Position numbers and translations under genes: made by a program
Part shown: positions 5,822 to 27,010 of the stretch, piece by piece
Layout of the letters: the number at the start of each line of letters is the position of its first letter
How positions within the stretch are numbered: the first letter of the stretch is position 1
Assembly (NCBI GenBank): GCA_938036315.1
Contig: CALHPK010000016.1
Location: 1 to 59,997, forward strand
Origin: an uncultured bacterium
GTDB lineage: Bacteria > Calescibacteriota > Calescibacteriia > Calescibacteriales > Calescibacteriaceae
DNA: 59,997 nt
Direction of reading: 5' to 3'
The notes under the pieces: model-generated
The model's input: only the letters and a program-made list of their open reading frames with translations
Databases searched by the model: none
What the model was told of the DNA's origin: nothing

Positions 5822-6206
5822 ACTGTATATATCTTCACATCACATACATATTAAAAATATATTACCATCGATCCCTTACCAAATCAAAATGCTTTGTTGC
5901 AAACCTCAGAATTTTCATAAAAAATTCCCCTGAATTTACTTAAGAAATTATAATTTGTGAAATTAGAAAAACATTCTGAGAATATGGATTCTTTCTCAAC
6001 TTTAGATGAACTATTTGCAACTTTCCACACACCCGGAGCTTTCATCAATCATATAACACCCCATACAGGGTAAATTCGTAAAAACTCCAGAATATAAGAT
6101 TACAGCCATAAGAATTGAAAAATTTGAACGAATAATGAATATTAAAAGTACAAATTATTTAGAAAATACAAAATATAATTTAATTGCGCAGCAATTGCTA
6201 CTGATT
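5822..6206. other. Gene-poor spacer with short open fragments
   Basis: This AT-rich stretch holds no gene I can support. A 29-codon ORF begins at about 5983, and an open frame runs into the next gene from 6057 with plausible residue composition but no recognisable homology. A short dyad AATTGC-GCA-GCAATT lies at 6182-6196 just before the preferred start of the downstream ATPase. The spacer could contain the promoter of the carbamoyltransferase and decayed coding sequence. Confidence 0.4.
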
Positions 6207-7811
6207 ATGAAGAAAAAGCTACCAATAGGTATCCAGAGCTTCCTGAAGATAAGAGAGGATAACTTCTATTACGTGGATAAAACTCACTTTGTAAAAAAAC
6301 TTGTCGATGAAGGAGGAGGATATTATTTTCTGTCAAGACCAAGAAGATTCGGTAAATCTCTTTTTCTGGATACCATAAAGCAAGCCTTCTTGGGAAAAAA
6401 AGAACTTTTTGAAGGTTTATACCTGGAGAAAAACTGGGATTGGTCTAGATCATACCCTGTGATTCACATAAGCTTTGGGGAGGGAGTAATAGAAACACCT
6501 GAGATTCTGGAGAAGACAATAGAGATAGTTCTCAATGAAAATGCGAGGAGGTTTGGAATATCACTTGAGACTCCACTTTTGAACTTCAGATTCAAAGAAT
6601 TAATTATAAAGCTTAATGAAAAGTATAATCAAAAAGTAGTAGTTCTAATAGATGAGTATGACAAACCCATTTTGGATAGAATCGAAGAAAAAGATACAGC
6701 GATAAAGATAAGGGATAAGCTTAAGAACTTTTATGCGGTGCTGAAAGATGCTGATCAGTATCTGAAGCTTGTGTTTATAACAGGGGTGTCAAAGTTCTCA
6801 AAAGTATCACTGTTCTCAGGATTGAATCAGCTAAACGATATAACGCTTGATAGAGACTATGCTGAGATCTGCGGATACACTGAGAAAGAATTAGTGGAGA
6901 CTTTCAAGGATGAGCTAAGATCTGAAGATGAGCTGAAAAATATAAGATTGTGGTATAATGGTTATAGCTGGGGAGGTGAGAAAGTCTACAACCCCTTTGA
7001 TATACTCTTGTATTTGCAGAAAAGAGAATTCAGACCTTATTGGTTTGAGACAGGAACTCCGACTTTTCTGATAAAGCTTTTGCTTGAGAAAAATTTCTTC
7101 ATTCCCAGAATGGAGAATATGGAAGTCAGCGAAAGACTTATCGGCTCCTTTGATGTTGATTTTGTAGAACCTGAAAATCTTCTTTTCCAGACAGGATATC
7201 TAACTGTGAAGGACTGGTTACAAGAACCTGAGGGAGTAAGATATACCCTTACCTTTCCCAACAGAGAAGTCAAGATAAGCTTTTCAAATTATCTTCTATA
7301 TTTTATCTTAAGAGGTAAGGAAGAAGGAGTAAAGGATAAGGTAAAGCATTTTTTGAGGGAGGGGGATATAGGTGGGCTGAGAGAGGCTTTATTTTCGCTT
7401 TTTGCAGGGATTCCGTATGATTGGTATAGGAAGGCGGAGTTAGGGAGATACGAAGGATTTTATGCTTCGATACTTTATTCATATTTTTGTGCGATAGGGG
7501 CAGAGGTAAGACCTGAGGATATAACATCTGAAGGCAGGATAGACCTTACGGTGATCTACTATGACAAGGTGTATATATTTGAATTCAAAGTTGTGGGGGA
7601 TGGGGTTGATAAGAAAAGAGGGAAAGTGGGGAGGGAAAGGAAGGTAAAATCAGTGAAGAAGATATCAGCACTACAGCAGATAAAGGAAAGGAGATATTGG
7701 GAGAAATACACTGATTTTGAAGAAATTTACATAGTAGGGGTTGAGTTCAGCAAGAAAAAAAGAAACATTTTGAATTTTGAGTGGGAAAAGTTAAATCTGA
7801 GTCCGAGCTGA
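6207..7811 (+). CDS. AAA-ATPase-like / PD-(D/E)XK nuclease-superfamily protein (DUF1703 type)
   Basis: A 534-residue protein from the preferred ATG at 6207, where family similarity begins (KKLPIGIQSFLKIRE). An in-frame upstream ATG at 6135 would add 24 residues. The AAA-ATPase-like domain carries YYVDKT, FLSRPRRFGKSLFLDTI (P-loop variant) and VVLIDEYDKPI (Walker B). The C-terminal PD-(D/E)XK domain has GRIDLTVIYYDKVYIFEFKV, giving the D...E-x-K active-site pattern. These proteins occur in many copies in some bacterial genomes. Their function is unproven; a role in nucleic acid restriction or mobile-element biology has been proposed. Flanking short repeats at 7818-7921 and a decayed upstream spacer fit recent insertion or turnover. 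Confidence 0.88.
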   Translation: MKKKLPIGIQSFLKIREDNFYYVDKTHFVKKLVDEGGGYYFLSRPRRFGKSLFLDTIKQAFLGKKELFEGLYLEKNWDWSRSYPVIHISFGEGVIETPEILEKTIEIVLNENARRFGISLETPLLNFRFKELIIKLNEKYNQKVVVLIDEYDKPILDRIEEKDTAIKIRDKLKNFYAVLKDADQYLKLVFITGVSKFSKVSLFSGLNQLNDITLDRDYAEICGYTEKELVETFKDELRSEDELKNIRLWYNGYSWGGEKVYNPFDILLYLQKREFRPYWFETGTPTFLIKLLLEKNFFIPRMENMEVSERLIGSFDVDFVEPENLLFQTGYLTVKDWLQEPEGVRYTLTFPNREVKISFSNYLLYFILRGKEEGVKDKVKHFLREGDIGGLREALFSLFAGIPYDWYRKAELGRYEGFYASILYSYFCAIGAEVRPEDITSEGRIDLTVIYYDKVYIFEFKVVGDGVDKKRGKVGRERKVKSVKKISALQQIKERRYWEKYTDFEEIYIVGVEFSKKKRNILNFEWEKLNLSPS

Positions 7812-7817
7812 AGGGTA

Positions 7818-7850
7818 GGGTATTCTAAGGGTATTCTAAGGGTATTCTGA
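7818..7850. repeat. Three tandem copies of an 11-base unit
   Basis: The unit GGGTATTCTAA occurs at 7818-7828 and 7829-7839, with a one-base variant at 7840-7850. It lies directly downstream of the ATPase/nuclease gene. Confidence 0.85.
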
Positions 7851-7931: not shown

Positions 7932-9104
7932 TCAGTAGTGGAATCTTAGGATTTTGCCACCTTTATTTTCGATATCCCTTGTGCATTCTGGCCATACTGC
8001 ACATAGTGTAGATGCAAAATCAGAAAACTCTGCGCTTTTGTGAAGGACTAAAACAAGCTCTCTTTTTTTTATAAATTTCTGGGATACTGGATCAAAGATT
8101 TTTGAGTATTCTGAATCGAGATCAGTTATAGATAATGCTCCTTTAACTTTAAGTATATTTCCAAAAACATTAATGTATTTTGCCGGATAGAAATAATATG
8201 ATGACCACCCGAAGCTGATTTCATATTTTGAAACTTTGTTTCTTCTGAAGAGTTCTGCAAATCTATCAACAATAAACCCCTTCCAAACTCCTCCCAAATC
8301 CGGTTGTTCGTCTCCCTGCCAGAATATATCAAAATACCTTAACTTTTTGCTTAAGATTTTGTATTTGTTGATGAGTTCATTTACGTCAGCGGATATCTTC
8401 CCCTCCCAGTAAAAATCAGAGAATTCTTTATTCAGCTTTTGAGCTAACTTCTCAATTTCTGCGAAAACTTCATTATCGCATTCACATTCAACGCAAAGGT
8501 ATGTATCTCCAATGAGGTAACAGACTGCTGAATTATGTTCTTTACTACTTTTGAATTCATCTAATTTCTGTTTTATCTCGGCGATCCCAAGTTTTAGGGA
8601 TTGAGAGATCGCAAAGGCTTTTCTCACAACACGGGTAGTTGCCCAAGCTGATAAAGTCGCTCCTCTTATGTTTTTTATATCACTACCAACTGAAATTCTG
8701 TCTTCGCTTCTTTTCCCCACAAATTGTTTCAGAAATGCCTGAGATCTTATTTCTCCTCCTCTTGTTTCTCTGTAAGCAAGAACATCTATATATTTTATCT
8801 TGGGTTCTGATTCATTCTCAATGCATACAAGAAATGTTATTGGTGCTTCTTTCCCTATTTCATTCAGGATAAAGCATGATCCGAGTTCTTTATCATTTTT
8901 GTAAGCCAAAAAACCGAGAATTCTTCTTTCATTGACTGTAATTTTTGCTGGTGAGCACAGATCTAAAAATTTGTCATAATCATTTATCTCAATTTCGACA
9001 AAAGATATGGAGGAGGGGAAGACTTCCATTACCTTCTGTTTTGCTCTGTCAATATATTTACTGAGTTCTACTCCGATAAGAAGCAGAGCAGTCTGAATTA
9101 ACAT
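7932..9104 (-). CDS. FMN-binding domain fused to an ApbE-like flavin transferase domain
   Basis: 390 residues, unannotatable by eye except through two recognisable blocks. Residues ~60-165 resemble the FMN-binding domain of RnfG/NqrC/NosR proteins and end in DIKNIRGATLSAWATTRVV. The GAT element (T150) is the site where FMN is attached to Thr through phosphoester in that family. Residues ~190-375 follow ApbE order: a helical N-part, FDIFWQ, PDLGGVWKGFIVDRFAELF (269-287), KIFDPVSQKF (335-344) and SDFASTL (361-367), the last giving Asp362 and Thr366 for Mg2+. ApbE moves FMN from FAD onto such Thr residues, so the protein may flavinylate itself. The N-terminal ~12 hydrophobic residues may be a weak signal or anchor. 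A good ribosome site (GGAGGAGGGG) precedes the ATG, 32 bases after the porin stop. Confidence 0.75.
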   Translation of the reverse strand: MLIQTALLLIGVELSKYIDRAKQKVMEVFPSSISFVEIEINDYDKFLDLCSPAKITVNERRILGFLAYKNDKELGSCFILNEIGKEAPITFLVCIENESEPKIKYIDVLAYRETRGGEIRSQAFLKQFVGKRSEDRISVGSDIKNIRGATLSAWATTRVVRKAFAISQSLKLGIAEIKQKLDEFKSSKEHNSAVCYLIGDTYLCVECECDNEVFAEIEKLAQKLNKEFSDFYWEGKISADVNELINKYKILSKKLRYFDIFWQGDEQPDLGGVWKGFIVDRFAELFRRNKVSKYEISFGWSSYYFYPAKYINVFGNILKVKGALSITDLDSEYSKIFDPVSQKFIKKRELVLVLHKSAEFSDFASTLCAVWPECTRDIENKGGKILRFHY

Positions 9105-9136
9105 TTTTTATCCCCTCCTCCATATCATTCAATGTG

Positions 9137-10609
9137 TCACAATCCGAATGCAAAGCCAAATAATATTGCATGTTGAGTGTTTTTACCAGATGTGTGAATA
9201 AACTCTTCCCCACTCATAAGATTTGTCAGCTCGTACGATAAAGAGAACACGAAAGATTGAGTTGGTCTGTAAGCTATTCCTATGGTATTTCGCACCTGAG
9301 ATATATCATCTTTTTTGAGCTTTTTTATCTCACCTTCTTCGAAATCTATACTAAGCAGTGTATTTTTATACTGTACAAATTCGGGTCTCCAAAAGAGAAC
9401 AAATTTTGATTCCTCACCGAGATCAAAGAAAGTTCCCCTGAGAAAACTTGGGAAGAATTTTAGTCTTAAGAGAACCCAGCCTCCGTGCTTTACATCGGCA
9501 AATGCTTTCTTCTTCAGAGTGATTTCAGAAACTAGTTCTGCTGGTACCTCAACTAAAACTCCTGTTACTGAGCTGATGAAAAGGACTTCTCCTTCTTTGA
9601 AGTGAGCCAGTTTCACAAAGCTTGAAATAATCTTGTCCAGCTGTCCAAATGATGTGAGAGCATACTCACCTTCAAAGTCAAGAAAAGAAGATGGTTCTGC
9701 CTTGAAATCAATTGCAGCTGATCCTATATATGCTGCCGGCATAAAATCGGGGGTATATCTTCCGTAGTATCCGGAGAATCCGATTTCGTATCCGAGCAGG
9801 GGTGAGAGGAAGATTCTGCCTGTTATGGCTTTCTCTTTTTTAGTGTCAAGTTTGTAGTTTCCGAATCTGGGTCTTATTACTGCTTCAAGCTTTGCTTGAT
9901 TATGTTTTACATCTCCATATTCTTCTGTTTTTTCGATACGTCCACCTATGACATAGAATTCAAAGTCGTGTTCTAATGTTACGCCGTTTACAATATATGC
10001 TTCATATCCTGCGAGTATGTTTCCAAGTTCGAAGTTTCCAGTGAATCCTGCACCGAGTTCGGTCCAAGCGGTTTTTTGTGGGAGTGCTGTAGCATCTCTT
10101 ACTGAGAGAGGTCTTCTTGCAGGTTCCCAAAGATCGTCATCGTGAAGGACATTGAATCTTCCAAGTGGTGGGAGTATAGCTCCAATGCGGAGGTTAAGCC
10201 ATCTTGCTATTTCAAAAGATCCCCACATCTGCTCGAGTTTTATTTCACTTCCGGCAGTCCCTTCGAGTTCCGATTTAGCCAGAAGTCCTCCTTGGTGCGG
10301 TTTGAAGTCTTCAGCAAGTTCTAATAATCCGAATCTTTCGAATTCAAGCTCAAGGTAGAATCTTAGCCTATCTTTTACTGTGGCGGAGAGTGTTGGTACA
10401 ATTCTCCTTAGGGTGAATGTATAGTGTGAGTGGTCTCCCTGTTTTAGCATTTCAAAGCGTGTGGAACCGTAGCCTCCGACCTGAAGGCCACCTTCTCTTT
10501 CATATGAGTATGCAGGAGAGTTTGTAAAGAGGAACAAAGTTATAACTGCCGCTATATGCCATAAAAAGGATTTTCCTTTGGTTTTTCTGAGGCTCATTTT
10601 CTTAATCAC
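9137..10609 (-). CDS. Outer membrane porin (phosphate-selective porin O/P-like)
   Basis: 490 residues. A basic start (MIKKMSLRKTKGKS) precedes a hydrophobic core ending in SPAYS at about residue 35, a classic signal peptide. The mature part opens with GGLQVGGYGSTRFEM and alternates amphipathic strands such as RFYLELEFERFG, LRIGAILPPLGRFNVLHDDDLWEPARRP and AYIVNGV. It ends in an aromatic/hydrophobic residue pattern (HAILFGFAFGL). This fits 16-18-stranded porins of the OprP/O family. The substrate cannot be read from sequence. Its promoter region carries a near-consensus Fur box (10628-10646), and it is followed by the FMN-binding/ApbE-like gene. Iron-regulated expression of an outer-membrane electron-transfer or uptake pair is therefore the working inference. 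Confidence 0.8.
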   Translation of the reverse strand: MIKKMSLRKTKGKSFLWHIAAVITLFLFTNSPAYSYEREGGLQVGGYGSTRFEMLKQGDHSHYTFTLRRIVPTLSATVKDRLRFYLELEFERFGLLELAEDFKPHQGGLLAKSELEGTAGSEIKLEQMWGSFEIARWLNLRIGAILPPLGRFNVLHDDDLWEPARRPLSVRDATALPQKTAWTELGAGFTGNFELGNILAGYEAYIVNGVTLEHDFEFYVIGGRIEKTEEYGDVKHNQAKLEAVIRPRFGNYKLDTKKEKAITGRIFLSPLLGYEIGFSGYYGRYTPDFMPAAYIGSAAIDFKAEPSSFLDFEGEYALTSFGQLDKIISSFVKLAHFKEGEVLFISSVTGVLVEVPAELVSEITLKKKAFADVKHGGWVLLRLKFFPSFLRGTFFDLGEESKFVLFWRPEFVQYKNTLLSIDFEEGEIKKLKKDDISQVRNTIGIAYRPTQSFVFSLSYELTNLMSGEEFIHTSGKNTQHAILFGFAFGL

Positions 10610-10627
10610 CTCCTTTTAAAAGAAAAA

Positions 10628-10646
10628 GATAATAATTCTCATTATC
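10628..10646. promoter_or_regulatory. Fur box
   Basis: The 19-mer GATAATAATTCTCATTATC matches the classical Fur consensus GATAATGATAATCATTATC at 16 of 19 positions, with both outer GATAAT and CATTATC halves intact. It lies 19-37 bases before the porin ATG on the minus strand and about 110 bases before the divergent membrane-protein gene. A Fur-family gene is in this window at 26600. Confidence 0.8.
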
Positions 10647-10756
10647 ATTTAATATTCCAATAAGGAGTTTTCAAATTTCCCAAAATCTTTACCAATTTTC
10701 AGTAAAATTCCGGTAAAACTTCTCCGAATATTCTTCAGTGCTCAAAATATTACACA

Positions 10757-11239
10757 ATGGCAAAGTTACCTATCTCCCTCAAACAATTGCCAAAGCCCAT
10801 CAAAGTTACTATCTTTTTTTTCTGTATCTACTGCATTTTTGGGCAGTTTATCAGCTTGGGATATCATATCAGCAAAAAAGGGATTGGTCCTCAAGGGGTC
10901 ATAAAATACTACCTCGGGGATCCTGAAGAGGGGATCCCGCCACAGTCTGCAGTTTCATTTTTCGAAGTCATGCACTTCCACACCTGGGCCCAAGCGAGTG
11001 TTATCTTCATCCTCTCCATAATATTTTCTTTATCCTCATTTTCTCAAAAACTCAAATTCCTTGTTATAGTTGTCACATTTGTAGCGTCAATTGGGCATAT
11101 TTTTCTACCTTCTCTTGTCAGATTTCTCGAACCAAAATTGGTATATATTCTTTTTGTCGATACTGTTATTTTATCTGCTGGGATGATTCTTATGGCCGGA
11201 CTTTCTCTGAAGGATCTATTTCTATCTAAACAATCGTGA
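10757..11239 (+). CDS. Small four-helix membrane protein, unknown
   Basis: 160 residues with about four transmembrane helices: VTIFFFCIYCIFGQFISLGYHI, a long central hydrophilic loop, SVIFILSIIFSLS, FLVIVVTFVASIGHIFLPS and YILFVDTVILSAGMILMAGL. Between helices 1 and 2 is FFEVMHFHTWAQA, with two closely spaced His residues; a further His lies in ASIGHIF. The His pattern would suit heme or metal binding, but this is inference. I do not recognise the family. It is transcribed divergently from the Fur-controlled porin/flavoprotein operon, with the Fur box in the shared upstream region. No ribosome binding site is evident before the ATG. Confidence 0.6.
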   Translation: MAKLPISLKQLPKPIKVTIFFFCIYCIFGQFISLGYHISKKGIGPQGVIKYYLGDPEEGIPPQSAVSFFEVMHFHTWAQASVIFILSIIFSLSSFSQKLKFLVIVVTFVASIGHIFLPSLVRFLEPKLVYILFVDTVILSAGMILMAGLSLKDLFLSKQS

Positions 11240-26599: not shown

Positions 26600-27010
26600 A
26601 TGAATTTGGTAGAAAAACTTAGAGAGGCTAAAATAAAAGTTACACCACAGAGAATTCTTATACTGAAGATAATGTCAAACTATCGTGGCAAACACGTCAC
26701 CGCTGAAGAGATCTATAACAAGATAAAAAGTGATATACCTTCAATATCAATAAGCACAGTATACAGAACGTTAAAACAGCTTGAAGAAAAGGGTATTGTA
26801 TCTTCACTAGCAGTTCCGTCAGCTTATGGCTTGACTTTATTTGACTCAAATTTCGAGGAACATCATCATTTTATATGCAAACACTGTGGAAAAATTCAAG
26901 ATATACCTAAACAAGATATATCAGTCAATATACACAAAAAAGCTAAGTGGAGGGGTGAGAATATATCAGTTATTATAAAGGGACTTTGCGAAGGATGTGA
27001 GGGGAAATAA
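26600..27010 (+). CDS. fur: Fur-family transcriptional regulator
   Basis: 136 residues. The winged-helix N-terminus (KVTPQRILILKIM... HVTAEEIYNKI... ISISTVYRTLKQLEEKGIV) is followed by the metal/dimer domain with EEHHHFICKHCGKIQDIP and a C-terminal CEGCEGK. This is consistent with a structural CxxC zinc pair and His-rich regulatory site. Whether it senses iron (Fur), peroxide (PerR) or zinc (Zur) cannot be settled. A near-consensus Fur box in front of the porin operon at 10.6 kb makes iron sensing attractive. Its own promoter is very AT-rich. Confidence 0.92.
   Translation: MNLVEKLREAKIKVTPQRILILKIMSNYRGKHVTAEEIYNKIKSDIPSISISTVYRTLKQLEEKGIVSSLAVPSAYGLTLFDSNFEEHHHFICKHCGKIQDIPKQDISVNIHKKAKWRGENISVIIKGLCEGCEGK

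Follow-up and report, generated by a model that had tools for sequence, protein, structure and literature searches.

A predicted Fur-controlled porin and flavoprotein operon with a candidate role in iron acquisition in an uncultured Calescibacteriaceae bacterium

The stretch of DNA analyzed here (referred to as the window: 59,997 nucleotides of contig CALHPK010000016.1, assembly GCA_938036315.1) belongs to the 1.87 Mb genome of an uncultured member of the Calescibacteriaceae. It carries a minus-strand operon encoding an outer-membrane porin with a signal peptide (first gene, 9137-10609) and a 390-residue protein in which an FMN_bind domain is fused to a compact ApbE-like domain (7932-9104). 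A Fur box (10628-10646) lies between this operon and a divergent plus-strand gene (10757-11239) encoding a 160-residue four-helix membrane protein, here termed TM4. Together, these elements probably represent a Fur-controlled module for periplasmic ferric reduction that feeds TonB-independent iron uptake. The list of open reading frames and the motif scan place the three genes and the box where a first-pass annotation of the DNA had located them. According to an earlier study (PMC4791363), Calescamantes populations live as aerobic heterotrophs in thermal springs on land at 70–90 °C.

Fur control and links to iron uptake

The Fur box scores 17/19 on the minus strand, which is the porin strand (GATAATGAGAATTATTATC), and 16/19 on the plus strand; the 16/19 box reported at first pass is therefore real and slightly stronger than stated. 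The number of such matches expected by chance in the window is 0.07. The box lies approximately 30 bp upstream of the ATG at 10597, which is the likelier start of the porin gene since the listed GTG at 10609 falls within the ribosome-binding site (Shine-Dalgarno aaaggaggtgattaagaaaATG). In a genome-wide scan of the five available genomes of the Calescibacterium family, about two to five sites with at most three mismatches were observed per genome, and the porin gene is preceded by a site of this class in all five. A Nitrospirae metagenome-assembled genome (MAG; L063) likewise possesses a Fur box at the porin start, so that box and porin occur together in six of six genomes. Furthermore, Fur-family proteins are encoded in all five family genomes, with one or two per genome. 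One of these genes is located in the window (26600-27010, plus strand; PF01475, 106 bits), and a second, stronger one is present on contig C17 of the same genome; the two may comprise a Fur and a PerR. Given the conserved box and the presence of a Fur-family protein, the porin-fusion operon is a predicted member of the Fur regulon. Across the 61 porins of the wider cluster described below (a count that includes L063 and L155, which are one locus), a Fur-like box scoring 14/19 or better precedes 36, compared to shuffle means of about 10–12. A sigma-70 promoter at the Fur box was also considered and rejected, as the scan scores were no better than those of shuffled sequences.

Only one other Fur site class is common to all five family genomes, and it precedes a gene encoding a cytochrome c-FTR1 iron permease (FTR1 in Pfam at 3.6e-20, plus cytochrome c). 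In the genome of the window, this 621-residue fusion is encoded on contig C21 (L114:3820-5685) behind the genome's other Fur box. Moreover, FTR1 genes adjoin the cluster itself in other genomes. In the Nitrospirae MAG, FTR1 stands beside the porin and both have a 16/19 Fur box, located ahead of FTR1 and at the start of the porin, respectively, and in G074 a cytochrome c-FTR1 gene is located beside a porin - FMN_bind - TM4 - ApbE set. No TonB receptors were found in four of the five family genomes. Likewise, no clear FeoB was detected in the five genomes; FeoB_N matches were mostly found in frames of Era or Der size, two matches in frames longer than 600 residues are weak, and FeoB is likely absent. 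Because of the Fur and FTR1 links, the scarcity of TonB receptors and the lack of an evident FeoB, iron acquisition is the best-supported role predicted for the module. The iron-related function suggested at first pass has gained support from the second shared Fur site and from the FTR1 genes adjoining the cluster.

The fusion protein, TM4 and the wider cluster

The AlphaFold2 model of the fusion protein (predicted local distance difference test score 87, predicted template modeling score 0.70) comprises both folds anticipated for the 390-residue protein. Residues 6-172 match the RnfG fold (Z 14.7), and residues 190-390 match best to Ftp of T. pallidum (7mgt; Z 19.7, 2.4 Å, 200 residues), with other ApbE proteins scoring within about 1–2 Z units of this match. 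The motifs DLGG...KG, FDP, GAT and SDFASTL noted at first pass are all correct. Profile searches agreed in part: FMN_bind (PF04205) passes its Pfam cut-off (24.2 bits vs. 22) and an NCBIfam search returned RnfG (3e-8), whereas the Pfam ApbE family (PF02424, cut-off 25.6 bits) scores below the cut-off in the window protein (20.6 bits) and above it in the orthologues L060 (31.6) and L063 (36.8). The acceptor-type GAT is formed by G148-A149-T150, and Thr150 is invariant in the six compact fusions, i.e., five of the Calescibacterium family and one of the Nitrospirae MAG. Within the family, the FMN half is conserved at 57–64% compared to 38–50% for the ApbE half. Since no second FMN_bind protein above the cut-off was found in the window's own genome, the fusion is not favored there as the RnfG/NqrC subunit of a complete Rnf or Nqr complex. 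C77 and C94, like C195 and C204, lie opposite one another on predicted beta hairpins in the model; all four cysteines are kept in the five family proteins and all are lost in the Nitrospirae protein. Due to this geometry and their joint retention or loss, the pairs would suit disulfides in an exported protein, although in thermophiles such bonds may also form in the cytosol.

The fusion gene adjoins the porin gene in all five family genomes, with fusions 47–52% identical to that of the window and porin orthologues 55–64% identical in the other four genomes. TM4 adjoins this pair in three of the five, namely divergently in the window and downstream in the same direction in G003 and G004. A c'-type cytochrome gene follows the fusion in G001 and G003, and the gene order in the Nitrospirae MAG is FTR1 - porin - cytochrome-like - fusion - TM4. 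Hence, the gene-order survey recovered the trio together with the Fur box from every family genome and, additionally, from the Nitrospirae MAG. The window porin itself yielded no match in the Pfam search. A profile search connects it with porins that belong to this cluster in Gammaproteobacteria, and one of these has a match to Porin_O_P (PF07396, 8.6e-13).

In a survey of 55 named loci and some 30 further genome stretches, a wider cluster of the order porin - FMN_bind - (ApbE) - membrane partner was observed, often with a Fur box. Gammaproteobacteria and relatives have PepSY_TM as the membrane partner (L071: 2.4e-14); elsewhere it is TM4, often accompanied by ApbE. FMN_bind and ApbE are usually encoded by separate genes. 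FMN_bind-ApbE fusions bearing the canonical catalytic His were found in one other family (G033, G180, G315), and on this account the fusion is considered, from sequence, to exist in more than one form. The first-pass annotation was aware of no published system made up of precisely these three genes. This holds for the open-access papers searched, where no description of a porin - FMN_bind - TM4 set or of such a reduced ApbE-like domain was found, but the cluster itself is widespread rather than unique, and it is apparently unnamed.

In agreement with its initial description as a four-helix membrane protein, TM4 shows four long helices in the AlphaFold2 model (13-41, 74-91, 97-123 and 126-159). 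G42, Y52, H73 and H75 are nearly invariant, with His73 and His75 forming an HxH motif. TM4 is present in one copy in each of the five family genomes and was found in 45 of 386 genomes overall; 34 of 48 copies have a match to the FMN_bind/ApbE fusion profile no more than 3 kb away, and co-occurrence of the two within genomes is pronounced (Fisher P ~3e-24, uncorrected for relatedness). No Pfam or NCBIfam family covers TM4: the window protein has no match to any Pfam family, including DUF4405, and none of the 17 members tested matches PepSY_TM (PF03929). Since TM4 occupies the position of PepSY_TM in the cluster, the analogy suggests that it is an electron carrier. Structural matches to the MAPEG enzymes (mPGES-1, LTC4 synthase) are not informative, as Z values of about 10 are commonly reached by helical bundles and no Foldseek E-value was better than 0.07. 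Two further TM4 loci are of note. In G090 (L029:4016-4960), two tandem TM4 genes with a broken HxH in both stand beside a canonical ApbE, a porin and FMN_bind, and in G368 (L223) a 399-residue FMN_bind protein is encoded beside CxxCH proteins, one with a single heme motif and another with six, and a TM4 match lies nearby.

Beyond these genes, the window encodes a 558-residue protein (6135-7811, plus strand) that resembles, by reading, AAA-ATPase/PD-(D/E)XK nuclease-like proteins; its gene is followed by short direct repeats (gggtattctaa, ~7814-7850).

Proposed mechanism and competing explanations

In the proposed mechanism, iron scarcity would cause Fur to leave the box at 10628-10646, upon which the porin and the flavoprotein would be made. 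The porin may admit iron or small chelates to the periplasm, and TM4 would draw electrons from the quinol or membrane pool and hand them to the FMN carried by FMN_bind, which in turn would reduce Fe(III) in the periplasm. The product could be taken up by the cytochrome c-FTR1 permease, which is co-regulated in silico. The fused compact domain, besides which these genomes yielded no ApbE relative, may load the flavin in cis with its changed active site, a step whose chances are judged to be about evenly balanced. A more far-reaching proposal is advanced tentatively and is held to be rather unlikely: TM4 would constitute an undescribed class of electron carriers (HxH, possibly heme b) replacing PepSY_TM in Fur-controlled, TonB-independent ferric reduction and uptake across many phyla, and the compact ApbE would flavinylate in cis without the canonical His in Calescibacterium relatives and one Nitrospirae lineage.

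Several observations weigh against this mechanism. Many porins of distant clusters do not possess a recognizable Fur box. The TM4 gene is divergent in the window, and it is 14 kb away from the porin-fusion pair in G001 and on another contig in G002, with no Fur box within three mismatches in its vicinity. Furthermore, its model resembles only common helical bundles, and no heme or quinone site is evident. The N-terminus of the window fusion represents a weak export signal, in which the hydrophobic stretch is short and lacks a preceding basic residue; clearer export signals were read in the orthologues of L059 and L063. Finally, the catalytic His is absent from all six compact fusions, where its position is occupied by K, E, V, T, L or R, and each of them has K/R at position -6 and R/K at position -3 of the acceptor motif (K144-N-I-R147-G-A-T in the window protein). 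The canonical ApbE substrate motif is D-x-x-[S/T]-G-A-[S/T], in which exchange of Asp for Ala had a minor effect only (PMC12052999).

The latter two observations bear directly on flavin attachment. The catalytic residues of Vibrio ApbE are Ser241, His257 and Asp285 (PMC12052999); the canonical His, whose loss had gone unnoticed at first pass, precedes I(I)DP and is retained by most other ApbE proteins of the wider cluster. Compared to canonical ApbE proteins, the compact domain also lacks a hairpin preceding FDP and a stretch of about 60 residues that would separate the FD motif from DLGG. The catalytic Ser corresponds to T/S327 in the six fusions, and the metal-site residues Asp362 and Thr366 are invariant. 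An invariant His355 a few residues before the metal-site Asp might replace the lost His; it was dropped as a certain substitute because L174 has both histidines. Another departure from the canonical active site was noticed in Acidobacteria, where the cluster ApbE proteins L064:6444-7433 and L072:6270-7235 possess the His without the metal-site Asp/Thr (AEVASK, AEAASK). The altered active site and acceptor motif of the compact fusions argue against an ordinary transferase, and on their account covalent flavin binding is uncertain. The term "self-flavinylating" used at first pass is thus not established, with the catalytic His and the motif D and S/T gone in all six, yet no other ApbE was detected in any of the six genomes (MAGs rated 82–86% complete), which is the reason for assigning flavin loading to the fused domain. 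ApbE was present in all nine of the split-cluster genomes tested.

These altered residues raise a competing explanation, namely that the ApbE-like half is a pseudo-transferase with a structural or FAD/FMN-binding role and that flavin is bound non-covalently by FMN_bind, in which case iron reduction could still take place. This is regarded as a serious possibility of somewhat less than even likelihood. It would account for the loss of His, the deletion before DLGG, the changes at -6 and -3 and the lower conservation of the ApbE half; the invariance of GAT, Asp362 and Thr366, the missing second ApbE and the possible compensation by His355 (notwithstanding L174) speak for a retained activity. Moreover, the H257G exchange in Vibrio ApbE reportedly lowers transferase activity with little change in the Km for FAD (PMC12052999). 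The best structural match, Ftp, whose PDB titles name a bifunctional FMN transferase/FAD pyrophosphatase, together with the kept metal site, also raises the idea of a domain acting mainly in FAD hydrolysis or flavin trafficking, as in Treponema, that provides periplasmic FMN to the attached domain without covalent transfer. This is deemed quite improbable, as the match to Ftp is not specific and a pocket segment is deleted.

Another explanation concerns the purpose of the module rather than its chemistry. Under iron limitation, the flavoprotein might stand in for a cytochrome whose iron cost is high, either in respiration or in electron transfer within the periplasm, with the porin admitting a different substrate. 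Fur control alone cannot separate sparing from uptake, and an interchange of flavins and cytochromes was proposed previously (PMC8238504). However, iron sparing would predict neither the c'-type heme protein beside the fusion in G001 and G003 nor the FTR1 linkage in separate lineages, and the scarcity of TonB receptors means that little else is available for obtaining iron; it is therefore considered unlikely. Ferric reduction coupled to iron uptake stays the preferred interpretation.

Relation to known systems

The module represents a candidate iron-uptake route for Gram-negative bacteria without TonB receptors, among them an uncultured phylum from hot springs. It draws attention to TM4, a recurrent protein without a family model, as a likely source of electrons for flavinylated periplasmic proteins. 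Moreover, a fused ApbE domain devoid of the catalytic His, in genomes where no other ApbE was found, offers a sharp test of how flavinylation works.

Regarding its individual components, the fusion shares with RnfG/NqrC the fold and the GAT acceptor; it differs by carrying an ApbE-like domain, by having no adjoining Rnf/Nqr partner gene and by the absence of Asp at -6 and Ser/Thr at -3. Likewise, it resembles ApbE/Ftp transferases (PF02424) in fold, DLGG..KG and metal-site Asp/Thr, whereas the His is absent, the segment of about 60 residues is deleted and the domain is fused to its presumed substrate. Transferase and substrate are also combined in one chain in the kinetoplastid fumarate reductase (PMC12052999) and in ApbE-DUF2271 proteins (PMC8238504), in both cases with a substrate other than FMN_bind. 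A 2004 study predicted porins with Fur sites in front of them in Geobacteraceae (PMC545781). In the available text of that study, these hypothetical psp porins of Geobacter and Desulfuromonas, possible counterparts of the window porin, are weakly similar to PF07396 and proposed for iron transport, and no flavoprotein or TM4 partner is noted. The flavinylation-associated cytochromes DUF4405/FezC (PMC11334425) share with TM4 a small size, a membrane location, His residues and a link to ApbE or iron; TM4 has no match to any Pfam family, DUF4405 included.

At the level of the whole cluster, flavinylation gene clusters have been tied in outline to iron transporters and Fur (PMC8238504, PMC11334425), and some PepSY proteins are ferrisiderophore reductases (PMC13038864). 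The PepSY-like flavinylation and iron-reduction clusters (PMC8238504; FoxB, VciB) combine, as does the present one, an extracytosolic flavoprotein with a small membrane electron carrier and iron genes, with Fur in some species. In contrast to them, the partner here is TM4 without a PepSY match, FMN_bind takes the place of DUF2271, the first gene of the operon encodes a porin, and ApbE occurs as a shortened domain within a fusion. A further point in common is PepSY_TM, which the present cluster contains in its Gammaproteobacterial versions.

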